IMG/VR virus record: IMGVR_UViG_3300042516_005298
Location: 1 to 29,564 of that record
DNA: 29,564 nt
Direction: 5' to 3' (one strand)
DNA from: a virus
Part shown: positions 2 through 5,094 of the stretch, in pieces
Layout of the letters: the number at the start of each line of letters is the position of its first letter
Position numbering within the stretch: the first letter of the stretch is position 1
Notes under the pieces: generated by a model
Database searches by the model: none
What the model saw: the letters and a program-made list of their open reading frames with translations, nothing else
Told to the model about the DNA's origin: nothing
Position numbers and translations under genes: made by a program

Positions 2-346
2 GGAAATGACATACAGGCCTCGGATGGTAATGTCAATATCACAATGACATCCAATACACTGACCGAGGTTAAGGGTGATCTACAAGTTACAGGTAATGAT
101 ATTAAGGGCAGCAGTGGCACAACCAACATTTCTCTCAATTACAGTGCCACGCCAGGCGATGTCCAGGTAGCTGGTAATCTCTGGTCAGGACAGGGCATTA
201 TCGTTGGAAGCAACCAGATTAAAGCTTCTAACCAGAGCCTCTGCATTACACTGGATGGCACTGATGGATCGATCGCGGTCAACGGTGATCTTACAGTCTC
301 TGGAAATGACATAAAGTCAAATGGCGGCACAACAGCAATCACCCTC
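2..346 (+). repeat. Imperfect coding repeats in tail fibre (GNDIK units)
   Basis: Three in-frame copies of a unit of about 14-15 codons begin at 2, 92 and 302 (GNDIQASDG, GNDIKGSSGTT, GNDIKSNGGTT). The second and third are preceded by GDL.V(T/S), and a further GNLTVNGTTTT unit starts near 371. The spacings of 90 and 210 bases keep frame. Such repeats are typical of trimeric beta-helical fibre shafts, and they can shorten or lengthen by recombination. Confidence 0.7.
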
Positions 347-1438
347 AGTGGTGATAATGTGACGATACCTGGTAACCTCACAGTCAACGGTACAACAACG
401 ACAGTCAACACAACAAATCTGATTGTTGAAGACCCACTTATCTATATGGCTTCATCAAGTGCGCCAGGTACGGTAGGGTATGGTGGTATCGCAATCGCCT
501 CAGGTTCTGGTGTAACAAATCAAGCACTTGTCTTTGTGAAGGACACAAACGGGACAGAAGCAGTCTGGTCATCCGGACGTCAGGACGTCAATGCTGGATC
601 TGAAACAACAAACACGGGCTTGACATATCTTCCCATCCGCGCCAGTAAGTTTGAAGTGGGTGGAACGCTCGGTGCAGCTGGAAGATCTTTCATATCATCA
701 TCTGATGGTAGCGTCCTCTCAGCAGTCGCAGGTGGTGATCTCTTCTTGAATGCAGCAGCCGGCCCACCAGGATCAAATGGAAATGTTGTATTTGAAGTTG
801 CAGGAACAGACTACCTCCAGGTATCAGGTAGCGCAGGCAACAAAGTTGAATTTAAGGCACCTGCACTGATAGTTTCTGCTAGCATTTTAGAAACAACTGT
901 AGAAGATGTGCGTGCTTTTAGCGCAGCGACATTCATTCGTCTAGGAGCAACCAGCGGTGCAACAACAACCATTAGAGGTGGAACTCTTAATGGTAATCAA
1001 ACAACGCAGAACATCTTCAACACTACAGCGACAACGGTTAACTTTGCAGGAGCAGCAACTACACTTAATGTTGGTGGTGCAACAGGAAACTCAACAGCAA
1101 ACATCGCTGTAAGTGATCCAGGTGTAGGCAATACTAAGACGATCAACATTGGAACGTCTGGCGGTGCTAACTCTACTACAAACATCAACTTAGGATCTAG
1201 CGCCGGCGGAACAATCACTGCTAACAGAAGCCTTATTCCTAGCGTTGATGTAACCTATAATCTTGGCGGAGCAAACAACCGTTGGGCAAACATCTACACA
1301 GGTGACTTACACTTGAAGAATGATCGAGGTGACTACACCCTGATCGAGGAAGAGGATTTCCTTTCAATCCGCTTCAACAAGACGGGTAAGCGCTACAAGT
1401 TCGTCCTCGAACCAGTTCCTGAGCTTGATGAGAAGTAG
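2..1438 (+). CDS. Phage tail fibre protein, C-terminal part (5' end outside window)
   Basis: The frame is open to the left window edge. Codons from base 2 read GNDIQASDGNVNIT before the first ATG at 44, and this matches the repeat found later in the protein, so the real start lies upstream. The visible part is low-complexity, rich in Gly, Thr, Asn and Ser, and built of beta-type repeats (GNDIK...GTT.I.L). A segment VNGTTTTVNTTNLIVEDPL is of a kind common in fibres of T4-like cyanophages and relatives. The C-terminus changes character (NNRWANIYTGDLHL, then a charged tail ending PVPELDEK), as in fibre tips or chaperone-type ends. Its role would be virion attachment to the host surface. Phage fibre identity is fairly sure, but receptor and exact position on the tail cannot be read. 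A 16-bp hairpin follows the stop. Confidence 0.8.
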   Translation, partial: GNDIQASDGNVNITMTSNTLTEVKGDLQVTGNDIKGSSGTTNISLNYSATPGDVQVAGNLWSGQGIIVGSNQIKASNQSLCITLDGTDGSIAVNGDLTVSGNDIKSNGGTTAITLSGDNVTIPGNLTVNGTTTTVNTTNLIVEDPLIYMASSSAPGTVGYGGIAIASGSGVTNQALVFVKDTNGTEAVWSSGRQDVNAGSETTNTGLTYLPIRASKFEVGGTLGAAGRSFISSSDGSVLSAVAGGDLFLNAAAGPPGSNGNVVFEVAGTDYLQVSGSAGNKVEFKAPALIVSASILETTVEDVRAFSAATFIRLGATSGATTTIRGGTLNGNQTTQNIFNTTATTVNFAGAATTLNVGGATGNSTANIAVSDPGVGNTKTINIGTSGGANSTTNINLGSSAGGTITANRSLIPSVDVTYNLGGANNRWANIYTGDLHLKNDRGDYTLIEEEDFLSIRFNKTGKRYKFVLEPVPELDEK

Positions 1439-1504: not shown

Positions 1505-2755
1505 ATGGCTCTAATTGGAACTATCTCTGGAAGTGTTGGATCAGGTGGCGTTTTAACATCAAGAAACGCAATAACAGGAACACTCGTGGTGGCAAACACT
1601 TCTACAAGCTTCCCTGTAATCCCTACAGATCCAGTTGATGCTGTCTTGTACACACAAGGGTCGATCGTCGCTACGAATGAGATCCACGCAAGTGGAACTA
1701 TACGCTTGATGAACTCTTCTGGAGACGAGGGCGGAGAGCTCTTCCTCAACAAAGCAGTCACCAACACGACTCTTAATGGGGGCGTCACAATTGACGTCTA
1801 CCGGAACTTGGTTCGTTTCTTCGAACAAGGAGGAACAGCTCGAGGTTATTATCTCGACATCAGCAATGGTGGAGCCGGAGTATCAACTAATCTTAGTTTC
1901 TCAACAAGCTATACAAACGCAATTTTTGGTGACGGATCAGACGGTGATGTTACAATCAGCGCCTCTACGACTATGACGCGTGAGCAGCACTACAATAACC
2001 TCACTATCGGTACAACCGGCATCCTAAAGCCCCGCGGCTTCCGCATCTTTGTGAAAGGAACGCTCACTATCGAATCCGGAGGATCTATTAATGATGATGG
2101 AAACAATGCAACAGGCGGCACACCAGGCACAGGGCTTGGCGCAACCGGTTTTCTTGATGGACAGTCAAGCGCTGGAGGAAATTCTCGCGGTTCACTTGGC
2201 GCTGGAAATGCTGGGGTTGCTTTAGGATCAACAGTATCACTCAATAGCAACGGAGTGCTGCCCGTGGGCGGCGCCGGGGGCGCGAGCGGCACCGGGCAGG
2301 CGGGCGGAGCTGGTGGAACATGCACACAAATCACACCGTCTCAACGCTGGTCGTCAACCGCAGTACAATACGCGGGGCGCGCGGCAGGATCAGCACAGTG
2401 GAAAGGAGGATCCGGAGGCGGCGGCGGAGGCGCCGATCCAACTGGCGGAACATGCGTCAGTGGCGCGGGTGGAGGAGGCGGAGGCCTTGTTTATATCGCT
2501 GCAAATACGATTACCAACAATGGCACAATCTCTGCTAACGGAGGCAATGGAGGCAACGCATCATTCACAGGAACTGCTAATGCAGGCGGCGGTGGGGGCG
2601 GCGGAGCGGGACATGTGTGTGTCGTAACTAAGACAAATACATCTTTAGGCACAATTACTGCAAATGGTGGAACGGGTGGAGCCGGAGCCGGAGCCTCAGG
2701 CTTGCCAGGAGGCGTAGGTACATCAGGAACAGTTGTAACCATGGTGGTGACATAA
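1505..2755 (+). CDS. Glycine-rich tail fibre / adhesin-like protein
   Basis: This is a 416-residue protein with a good ribosome site (GAGAGG just upstream). Residues about 1-200 look like a fibre shaft. A segment near residues 78-120 (GGELFLNKAVTNTTLNGG, then VYRNLVRFFEQGG) resembles a motif seen in other phage fibre proteins. From about residue 200 to the end it becomes extremely Gly-rich, with runs such as GGSGGGGGGAD and NAGGGGGGGAGH separated by short loops, three of which hold Cys (GGTC, GGTC, GHVC). This layout recalls the polyglycine type II helix bundles of T-even gp38-type tip adhesins, where variable loops set receptor specificity. Homology to gp38 is inferred from pattern only. It overlaps the next start by one base (TAATG). 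Confidence 0.75.
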   Translation: MALIGTISGSVGSGGVLTSRNAITGTLVVANTSTSFPVIPTDPVDAVLYTQGSIVATNEIHASGTIRLMNSSGDEGGELFLNKAVTNTTLNGGVTIDVYRNLVRFFEQGGTARGYYLDISNGGAGVSTNLSFSTSYTNAIFGDGSDGDVTISASTTMTREQHYNNLTIGTTGILKPRGFRIFVKGTLTIESGGSINDDGNNATGGTPGTGLGATGFLDGQSSAGGNSRGSLGAGNAGVALGSTVSLNSNGVLPVGGAGGASGTGQAGGAGGTCTQITPSQRWSSTAVQYAGRAAGSAQWKGGSGGGGGGADPTGGTCVSGAGGGGGGLVYIAANTITNNGTISANGGNGGNASFTGTANAGGGGGGGAGHVCVVTKTNTSLGTITANGGTGGAGAGASGLPGGVGTSGTVVTMVVT

Positions 2756-2946
2756 TGACTGGAAAATGGATCATATTCTCAAATGACGTAAGTCAAAATT
2801 TAATAGACACTTGGATGAACATGCATCCCGATGTCAATGGCTACTATGTTGGAATTCCTCCCTTTCTTTTGGAAAAATCATTATTAGAAAACTGGACGCT
2901 ACCGAGAATTTGGGAAGAAATTCCAGAAAACAACTTAAATCCATAG
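2755..2946 (+). CDS. Small hypothetical protein downstream of adhesin
   Basis: This is a 63-residue protein whose ATG overlaps the stop of the Gly-rich fibre gene by one base, which suggests translational coupling. It is aromatic-rich (three Trp near WIIF, TWMNMHP and ENW) and acidic toward the C-terminus, with no signal peptide or membrane helix. No family is recognised. The position behind a fibre gene would suit an assembly chaperone or accessory tip protein, but this is only context. Coding is likely from the tight coupling. Confidence 0.55.
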   Translation: MTGKWIIFSNDVSQNLIDTWMNMHPDVNGYYVGIPPFLLEKSLLENWTLPRIWEEIPENNLNP

Positions 2947-2982
2947 CGGCGTTCAAATTTCAATGTTAAACATCGAGGCAGT

Positions 2983-3192
2983 ATGAAAGACGAAATATTA
3001 AATCTCCTTAAAGACGAGGAAGGCCAGTCCACCGTCGAGTACATGCTGCTCATCAGCGTGATCGTCATCGCCATCGTCGCCGCGGCATACGTCTTCATCG
3101 ATCCGTTCAGGCAGGGTGTTCTGGATCTGGCGAAAGACATCAAGAAGATCCTATCAGACGGCAAGATAGGAAGAGTAGGCACAACTCGTTAA
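2983..3192 (+). CDS. Type IVb (Flp-type) pilin-like protein
   Basis: This is a 69-residue protein. A short charged leader of 14 residues (MKDEILNLLKDEEG) precedes QSTVEYMLLISVIVIAIVAA. This has the hallmarks of a type IV prepilin: cleavage after Gly, Glu at mature position +5, then an unbroken hydrophobic helix of about 20 residues. The small size and the Q-x3-EY start fit Flp/Tad pilins; similar small pilins are common in Myxococcota and other former deltaproteobacteria (from memory, unchecked). A clear GAGG ribosome site stands four bases before the ATG. The codons are GC-rich compared with the AT-rich small gene before it, suggesting recent gain from a host. A pilin in a phage late region is unexpected. 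It could alter host pili or be an unrelated small membrane protein with a look-alike N-terminus. Confidence 0.75.
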   Translation: MKDEILNLLKDEEGQSTVEYMLLISVIVIAIVAAAYVFIDPFRQGVLDLAKDIKKILSDGKIGRVGTTR

Positions 3193-3222: not shown

Positions 3223-5094
3223 ATGGAAAAACAGATTATCTTTGTTGCTGACCTCTTTGCAGAACAATATGCCGGCGGTGCCGAACTAACTTCAGATGCA
3301 CTGATTGAAGCATCACCCACACTTGTCAAGAAAGTTCATGCAAAGAACTTAACAGTTGAGTTCTTACAGCAGAACGTTGATGCTTTCTGGATCTTTGGCA
3401 ATTTCTCATCCATCAACTGGTCGCTGATCCCAGTCATCGCAGCCAATCTTCGTTATGCAGTGCTTGAGTATGACTACAAGTTCTGCCTCCACCGCTCAAT
3501 TGAGAAGCACAAGCATGAGACAGGACAGGAGTGCGACTGCCACAAGCGCCAGCTAGGTCAAATGGTTGCAGGCTTCTACCAGGCTGCGGATGCGATCTTC
3601 TGGATGTCTGAGCAGCAGCGCGCTCGCTATACAGAGCGGTTCCCCAATCTGCTGGGTCACAGGAATTCGCATGTCCTAAGCTCTGTATTTGATAGTCGCT
3701 TCTTTGAGAAGATTGAGCAGCTTAAGAGCAAGACAACTGATAGAAGCGGTTGGATTGTCCTCGGGTCACAGTCGTGGATCAAAGGCTATGAAGACGCTGT
3801 GAAGTGGTGTGAGGACAACGGAAAGAAGTTCCAGAGCTACTGGGATGTCCCATATGAGGAGCTACTTGACGTCATGTCAAGATCTGAGGGATTTGTCTAC
3901 CTCCCACGCGGCGGCGACACATGCCCAAGAATGGTGATCGAGGCAAAGCTTCTTGGATGCGAAGTCGTCACCAACGATAACGTGCAGCATGCAGCAGAAA
4001 AATGGTGGAATGCCAACCCAGATGACGTCTGTGATTATTTGAAGGGTAGGCCTGATGTGTTTTGGGCGGCCATAAATAATGTGATCCAGCAGCAACCGAC
4101 GCTGTCTGGTTACAGCACGACCTACAATTGTGTCGATCAAAACTATCCATTCGTCGAGTCGATCACGTCTCTTCTGGATGTCTGCGATGAGGTTGTTGTC
4201 GTCGACGGGGGATCGACAGATGGTACCTGGGATGTCCTAACTGCGATGTCAAATGAGAACCCAAAGCTCAAGATCAAGCAGATCGAGCGTGACTGGAACC
4301 ATCCACGACACTCTGTCTTTGATGGTATGCAGAAGGCAGCTGCTCGTGATCTCTGCACGGGTGACTTCTGCTGGCAGCAGGACGTCGACGAAGTAATACA
4401 TGAGAATGATTACCAGAAGATCCGCAATTTGCTCACATCGACACCCAAGAGCGTCAATCTCATCTGTCTACCTGTTACAGAATTCTGGGGAAGCAAGGGT
4501 AAGATCCGGATCGACATTAATCCCTGGAAGTGGCGTCTGAGTAGAAACCACCCAGAGATCACACATGGCATTCCTGCAAGTCTACGTCGACAAGATGAGA
4601 ATGGTGACCTCTACTCTGCACCAGGATCAGATGGTTGTGATTACATCACACGAAGCACTGGTGACTTAGTTCCAAATGTCAACTTCCACACGCAGCAGAC
4701 AGAACAATTGCGTCAAGCTGCTGCGAGAGATCCTGCAGCAAGGCAGCAGTATGTCCAATGGCTGACAGCAGTGATCCAGAACTTACCTGGTGTCTACCAC
4801 TATTCATGGTTCAATCTTCCTCGCAAGATTAGAACTTACAAGAACTACTGGTCACGTCACTGGCAGAGCATGTACAACATCAGTCAGGATGATACAGCAG
4901 AGAACAACATGTTCTTCAATAAGCCTTGGGCTGACGTAAGTGATGATGAGATTGACCAGCTTGCTGCCCGCCTTGAGCAAGAGATGGGTGGCTGGATCTT
5001 CCACCGTAAGATTGATTGGAACAATCCCACGCCGAGTGTTATGATTGAAAGCATCAAACACCCAGATGTTATGAGAGAGTGGATTGATATCTAA
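3223..5094 (+). CDS. Two-domain glycosyltransferase (GT4-like + GT2)
   Basis: This 623-residue protein appears to fuse two transferases. Residues 1 to about 285 look like a GT-B/GT4-type enzyme (AGGAELTSD near 17-25, GSQSWIKGYEDA near 181-192, and a degenerate RGGDTCPRMVIEAKLLG in place of the usual E-G-F-G-x-x-x-x-E motif). Residues about 296-520 are a GT-A/GT2 domain with the nucleotide-binding VDGGSTDGT (327-335) and the metal-binding QQDVDE (385-390). Its GC content resembles the phage backbone rather than the AT-rich island that starts right behind it. Donor and acceptor are unknown. No Shine-Dalgarno sequence is close to the ATG. Confidence 0.8.
   Translation: MEKQIIFVADLFAEQYAGGAELTSDALIEASPTLVKKVHAKNLTVEFLQQNVDAFWIFGNFSSINWSLIPVIAANLRYAVLEYDYKFCLHRSIEKHKHETGQECDCHKRQLGQMVAGFYQAADAIFWMSEQQRARYTERFPNLLGHRNSHVLSSVFDSRFFEKIEQLKSKTTDRSGWIVLGSQSWIKGYEDAVKWCEDNGKKFQSYWDVPYEELLDVMSRSEGFVYLPRGGDTCPRMVIEAKLLGCEVVTNDNVQHAAEKWWNANPDDVCDYLKGRPDVFWAAINNVIQQQPTLSGYSTTYNCVDQNYPFVESITSLLDVCDEVVVVDGGSTDGTWDVLTAMSNENPKLKIKQIERDWNHPRHSVFDGMQKAAARDLCTGDFCWQQDVDEVIHENDYQKIRNLLTSTPKSVNLICLPVTEFWGSKGKIRIDINPWKWRLSRNHPEITHGIPASLRRQDENGDLYSAPGSDGCDYITRSTGDLVPNVNFHTQQTEQLRQAAARDPAARQQYVQWLTAVIQNLPGVYHYSWFNLPRKIRTYKNYWSRHWQSMYNISQDDTAENNMFFNKPWADVSDDEIDQLAARLEQEMGGWIFHRKIDWNNPTPSVMIESIKHPDVMREWIDI

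Follow-up and report, generated by a model that had tools for sequence, protein, structure and literature searches.

We report a phage family whose members encode an Flp-type pilin. The pilin gene is at positions 2983-3192 of the window, which is the whole stretch of lake-phage DNA that we analyzed (IMG/VR record IMGVR_UViG_3300042516_005298; 29,564 nucleotides). Judging from its sequence, the gene product is firmly an Flp (type IVb or Tad) pilin. As a tentative explanation, we propose an ancient acquisition: T4-like phages that infect freshwater Myxococcota obtained this pilin from their hosts and kept it as a working pilin, which may exclude other phages or change the receptor. Phages that inhibit host pili are already known, but neither the annotated phages nor the open literature that we searched yielded a family with a pilin gene of its own. 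(An exact-phrase search of the open literature, with most subscription journals outside its reach, gave no description of phage-encoded pilins.) What stands out is the combination of a phage pilin that is under strong selection, is linked to the phage's own adhesins, and is often paired with a gliding subunit. The finding also points to freshwater Myxococcota as the likely hosts of a deeply branching T4-like lineage.

The pilin gene and its surroundings

These are the features of the window around the pilin gene:

44..1438, + strand: tail-fiber-like structural protein of cluster c1, which clusters with fiber proteins from L003, L006, L009, L012, and L015
1505..2755, + strand: glycine-rich putative fiber protein or adhesin, 416 amino acids (phrog_13336, E = 1.5e-8, unknown function)
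2755..2946, + strand: 63-amino-acid ORF between the adhesin and the pilin, without a Pfam or PHROG match
2975..2978, + strand: GAGG, a probable ribosome-binding site for the pilin gene, as judged by its sequence
2983..3192, + strand: Flp-type (type IVb/Tad) prepilin, 69 amino acids (ORF with ATG, viral and bacterial orthologs, dN/dS)
2983..3024, + strand: leader peptide MKDEILNLLKDEEG, with a predicted prepilin-peptidase cut after Gly14 (Gly14 and Gln15 invariant; Class_IIIsignal)
3025..3090, + strand: N-terminal part of the mature pilin, which includes Glu19 (+5), Tyr20, and the hydrophobic helix (invariance of E19 and Y20; AlphaFold helix)
3091..3189, + strand: amphipathic helix and C-terminal tail with the phage-specific residues P41, D59, R64, and V65 (alignment)
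3223..5094, + strand: glycosyltransferase (GT2), directly 3' of the pilin (PF00535, E = 7.1e-9; cluster c6)

The full translation of the 2983-3192 ORF is MKDEILNLLKDEEG followed by QSTVEYMLLISVIVIAIVAAAYVFIDPFRQGVLDLAKDIKKILSDGKIGRVGTTR, with the predicted cut between the two. The member of cluster c1 from L012 matches a tail fiber family (phrog_16641, E = 2e-15). The composition and position of the 1505..2755 product suggest that it is a fiber protein or adhesin. The c6 glycosyltransferase is also found behind the pilin in L003, L005, L006, L007, and L009.

Behind the pilin, positions 5277-25371 of the window contain about two dozen genes on the same strand in one long array. All four of the genes that we tested from this region encode glycosyltransferases or nucleotide-sugar enzymes (a GT2, a GDP-mannose 4,6-dehydratase, and two of GT4 type). 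The GC content behind the pilin is 32-39% up to about 20.4 kb and 42-50% after that. Arrays of similar-sized genes also follow the pilin in L003, L005, L006, L007, and L009.

Assignment to the Flp family

As originally predicted, the 69-residue ORF has a leader, a glycine at -1, a glutamate at +5, and a hydrophobic helix; with a tyrosine at +6, the pilin signature is complete. No variation at G14, Q15, E19, or Y20 occurs among the 37 aligned relatives from phages and bacteria. A search against Flp/Tad families, which had been put forward as a check, gave weak matches in Pfam, with E-values of 0.0021 for Flp1_like, 0.0057 for Class_IIIsignal (residues 14-38), and 0.051 for Flp_Fap. The scores of 13.8-17.9 bits are below the curated cut-offs (32-33.5 bits for Flp_Fap and Flp1_like), which is a scoring convention. 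We also looked for a better match to a phage membrane protein family, and no family in PHROGs matches the pilin at E = 0.1. Because the Pfam matches are weak and PHROGs gave none, the family assignment rests mainly on the relatives, which include pilins from tad operons. The window pilin is 41-46% identical to Flp proteins inside host tad clusters, and the relatives in L036-L038 and L040 are near RcpC- or secretin-type genes.

Like the Flp/Tad pilins (PF04964, PF16982; Caulobacter PilA), the window pilin has a 14-residue leader and E19 and Y20, and its mature part is short and entirely helical. In Caulobacter, too, the pilin leader is 14 residues long, and Glu19 and Tyr20 take part in assembly contacts (PMC11067988). 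Unlike those pilins, the window pilin is encoded by a phage, has no tad genes around it, and belongs to a Myxococcota subtype, with scores of its own under the Pfam cut-offs. AlphaFold predicts two helices (residues 2-38 and 40-58) with a break between them at residue 39, and then a loose tail (pLDDT 83; 96-98 across residues 21-50). A sequence-profile search of the PDB with the pilin gave nothing meaningful, and Foldseek found no match for the model in the PDB, so we do not count the fold as evidence; it is just consistent with Flp.

The alignment also separates the phage pilins from their relatives. P41, D59, and R64 are fixed in all 14 of the aligned phage copies and V65 is present in 13 of them, while most host pilins differ at these positions. 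Three of the four are near the C-terminal end. In the Tad pilus of Caulobacter, this end of the pilin faces outward, and phage PhiCb5 binds the pilus (PMC11067988).

Orthologs in T4-like phages

Related phages do keep the gene: among 2.9 million IMG/VR contigs, we found an ortholog of the pilin in 16 others (best segments 84-94% identical), and a profile scan recovered the same 16 contigs. The 13 sister copies that we aligned are 78-91% identical to the window pilin over its full length. Using tblastn, we found neither the pilin nor CglF (see below) in the 50,697 annotated phage records of INPHARED.

Could the contig be a chimera, or the pilin a chance ORF? The GC3 of the window pilin (0.72) does depart from the mean of the contig (40% GC). 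But the 16 independent contigs come from separate metagenomes and have differing flanks, which excludes a wrong join of host and phage DNA, and AT-rich phage copies code for the same protein. We consider both ideas refuted. The original prediction had also noted the GC-rich codons. These are real in the window, but they are no general mark of the gene, as the GC3 of the phage copies ranges from 0.19 (L002) to 0.88 (L010) for a near-identical protein. We therefore rejected GC-rich codons as proof of a recent transfer.

Between phage pilins, dN/dS has a median of 0.042 over the 58 C-terminal codons, and divergence at silent sites reaches 100% (saturation). The low dN/dS, the divergence at silent sites, and the spread of GC3 together argue for long residence in phages under purifying selection, and not for recent capture. 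As far as sequences can tell, the long residence is firm. The phage pilins form one clade with support of 75/72, which is weaker than for the clade of phage CglF proteins.

Four of the sister records contain a T4-type gp23 above the cut-off. None of the named relatives of these gp23 proteins exceeds about 51% identity; the nearest come from an uncultured phage, Flavobacterium phage immuto, Microcystis phage Mel-JY01, and RM378. Other sister records contain an RnlA-type RNA ligase (phrog_562) or a phage DNA ligase (phrog_114). The window, a fragment of 29.6 kb, shares its c1 fiber-type protein and c6 with L003 and L009, both of which are gp23-positive. The pilin-bearing phages belong to a deep T4-like lineage that lacks close relatives among named phages.

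Likely hosts

We scanned 84,980 species genomes and found 28 bacterial and archaeal loci with relatives of the pilin, several of which are in real tad operons. The closest cellular pilins are from freshwater metagenome-assembled genomes titled "Deltaproteobacteria" or "proteobacterium" (L018-L035) and share 62-76% identity with the window pilin along its full length. Like the window pilin, these Flp proteins stand alone, outside any tad cluster. They differ in being chromosomal, and most of them differ at P41, D59, R64, and V65. The locus is conserved: OmpA-like protein, aldehyde dehydrogenase, pilin, metallophosphoesterase, TPR/sulfatase, and DNA ligase.

We also examined the tad regions of five host genomes with the orphan pilin; these regions are away from the orphan gene. 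The one that was annotated, in L072, encodes ATPases, a prepilin peptidase, Flp, RcpC, a secretin, a MinD-TadA ATPase, and a T2SSF platform protein. The other four regions share gene clusters with it. Glt clusters are present in the host genomes as well. The original suggestion that the phage pilin marks a host with a Tad pilus is supported, because its closest relatives in cells, the orphan Flp proteins, come from Myxococcota with tad clusters.

The GTDB phylum draw that contains G005 also contains the Myxococcota-titled record L040 (G019), but not the Desulfarculus genome G018. At E = 1e-10, CglF is present in 129 of the 237 genomes from that phylum and in none of 14 control genomes. The pilin subtype is found in only 17 of the 237. 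The link of the pilin to Myxococcota is firm, and its sequence relatives indicate that the hosts of the pilin phages are likely freshwater Myxococcota. From the gliding and tad genes, we infer that these hosts may be predators.

The orphan pilin of the hosts may be compared to KilP (MXAN_5121), a protein of 97 amino acids that is the major pilin of the Kil predation pilus of Myxococcus xanthus (PMC12075869). Both are orphan Flp genes outside the clusters of the machine, in gliding bacteria, and the host copies share the context of KilP in that each stands alone while a tad-like machine is encoded elsewhere in the genome. KilP is longer than the window pilin (97 vs. 69 amino acids). The orphan position had suggested orthology with KilP; a profile search across nine genomes with strong CglF hits gave a best E-value of 2.8e-4, which does not establish it.

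Three of the loci with pilin relatives (L024, L031, and L032) are titled Klebsiella pneumoniae. Their gene content groups them with the freshwater Myxococcota, so these are apparent mislabels. One bacterial genome, G016 (L034 and L036), has seven Flp-like matches, including two neighboring pilins in a tad operon as well as an orphan copy.

A probable CglF in sister phages

Ten of the 16 sister contigs have a second host-derived gene, for a probable CglF (GltF), mostly adjoining the pilin. L065 encodes CglF too, and has no pilin within the 12 kb that we examined. CglF is a periplasmic or inner-membrane part of the gliding machinery of Myxococcus (PMC4488436). The phage proteins have 78-90 amino acids and a signal peptide, and where tested they match NCBIfam CglF with E-values of about 1e-15. 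More precisely, their matches to NF033764 have E-values of 4e-15 to 2e-16 and scores of 56-60 bits, under the cut-off of 90, and host CglF genes inside glt clusters score no better.

The phage and host CglF proteins are mostly 65-73% identical. In the hosts, CglF is in a glt cluster with GltC (5e-79), GltE (1.6e-41), GltG (3e-96), and CglE. The phage CglFs form one clade among the host CglFs (support 100/99), and their dN/dS is 0.056, with most pairs saturated. In L002, L014, and L012, the stop codon of CglF overlaps or abuts the start of the pilin. CglF was not found in the window or in records L003-L007 and L009, most of which are fragments. Apart from the pilin and CglF, the phage DNA that we examined (for most records, only part of the contig) yielded no subunits of the tad or glt machines.

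The pilin moves with tail adhesins

That the pilin lies beside tail-fiber genes was correctly noted for the window, and the association is stronger in the sister phages. In L005, L006, L009, L010, and L015, the stop codon of an adhesin gene is followed immediately by the ATG of the pilin. This adhesin is of the GLEYA/PA14 type (cluster c5), and further upstream, where the contigs extend that far, are a lectin-like Laminin_G gene (c8) and fiber genes. L006 and L015 are 88.6% identical over 2,214 nucleotides, which comprise the end of the fiber gene, c8, c5, and the pilin, and the similarity ends at the pilin's stop codon. There is no other similarity between these records (20.2 and 14.2 kb). 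L006 and L010 share 1,007 nucleotides, ending inside the 3' end of the pilin. Adhesin and pilin thus travel together as a block.

In L003, the gap between c8 and the pilin (1836-1908) contains what appear to be the last codons of a c5-like adhesin, and the rest of c5 is missing. It looks as if c5 was deleted and the pilin was retained.

What the pilin may do for the phage

We predict that the phage pilin is processed and assembled by the host and that exclusion is the benefit. Expression of the pilin would be coupled to that of the adhesin gene, and the host's prepilin peptidase would cut the phage prepilin. The product would then join the pool of pilins in the inner membrane and would either be incorporated into the host's Tad pilus or act as a competitor in it. 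Because there is no other pilus gene in the phage DNA examined, the phage product should use the host's Tad machine. The altered pilus might change the adsorption of related phages (superinfection exclusion), or progeny might be spared from sticking to spent cells. The target would be the surface organ that the phage family itself putatively adsorbs to.

The original prediction had raised pilus interference and phage exclusion. The place of the gene, which abuts adhesins and moves with them, favors this, while the effect on pili is a prediction. Among several potential roles, exclusion seems the most likely. In phage T5, llp adjoins and lies downstream of the receptor-binding gene pb5, and it causes exclusion (PMC9586334). 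The position of the pilin directly behind tail adhesins, and its movement with them, suggest a similar role. T5 Llp and phi80 Cor are also small envelope proteins. T5 Llp binds a receptor, whereas what the window phage would supply is an altered version of the organ's own subunit. Other phage proteins act on a receptor pilus: Gp05 (D3112), Aqs1 (DMS3), and pVII (Pf4) inhibit pilus proteins (PMC11436027) but are not pilins, while the window protein is one. P41, D59, R64, and V65, which distinguish the phage pilins from most host pilins in sequence, suggest that the phage copies alter the pilus. Three observations speak against exclusion: strong conservation near the host sequence also fits maintenance of the pilus; CglF, as a periplasmic or inner-membrane part, is no obvious receptor; and several phages (L002, L008, L012-L014, L016, and L017) have no adhesin beside the pilin.

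The main rival is a serious one, although we think it somewhat unlikely to be correct: the pilin and CglF could be auxiliary genes that keep the Tad pilus (perhaps a predation pilus) and the gliding motor running under host shut-off, so that the infected cell continues feeding or moving. Cyanophages do likewise with psbA. In its favor, the phages encode proteins of two machines, with near-host sequences, an intact leader or signal peptide, and strong purifying selection. Also, A-motility is coupled to the Tad-like Kil pilus when Myxococcus kills prey (PMC8460266), and labeled KilP given in trans enters the native pilus (PMC12075869). But the phage DNA examined holds only one subunit of each machine, the pilin is linked to tail adhesins and ends a recombining adhesin block, and the phage-specific residues are fixed.

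Alternatively, the proteins might jam pilus assembly and gliding and so halt the host's movement or killing, with other phages being irrelevant. KilP A96C alone fails to restore predation, so a slightly altered pilin can lose function (PMC12075869), and Pseudomonas phages disable pili via other proteins (PMC11436027). We consider this idea quite improbable: full conservation of E19 and Y20 and a dN/dS of 0.04 exceed the needs of a poison subunit, and there is no evident gain for the phage besides exclusion. It is less credible still that the protein has been repurposed as a virion, lysis, or membrane protein with merely inherited pilin features. It does have a single hydrophobic helix and its gene sits among structural genes, but all copies retain the cleavage glycine, the glutamate at +5, the tyrosine at +6, and nearly the whole mature sequence, and the absence of a PHROG match is a further point against this.

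In general, these results suggest that the phages remodel the cell surface of bacteria that glide and are probably predators. A broader proposal is that T4-like phages of gliding, predatory myxobacteria hold subunits of a Tad-type predation pilus and of the Glt motor, and that they reprogram the cell surface in both infectability and hunting; we view this as possible but doubtful. Whether lytic phages replace a receptor subunit to keep rivals out, or sustain motility and predation during infection, is a testable question.

Other genes of the pilin phages

In the records listed above that have no adhesin beside the pilin, the pilin is next to CglF, a HAD-like gene, or unknown ORFs. The stop codon of the pilin overlaps the HAD-like gene in L008, L012, L016, and L017. 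The HAD-like protein (DUF2608 or polynucleotide-kinase-like) is encoded at L008:10201-11124, L012:10189-11130, L016:10007-10945, and L013:10186-12114; in L011 and L013, it is fused to a second domain. Finally, L128:1489-2520, from phage record G032, resembles a conserved host gene (L075:1090-2565; about 41% identity) located next to a glt/ribosomal L3 region.
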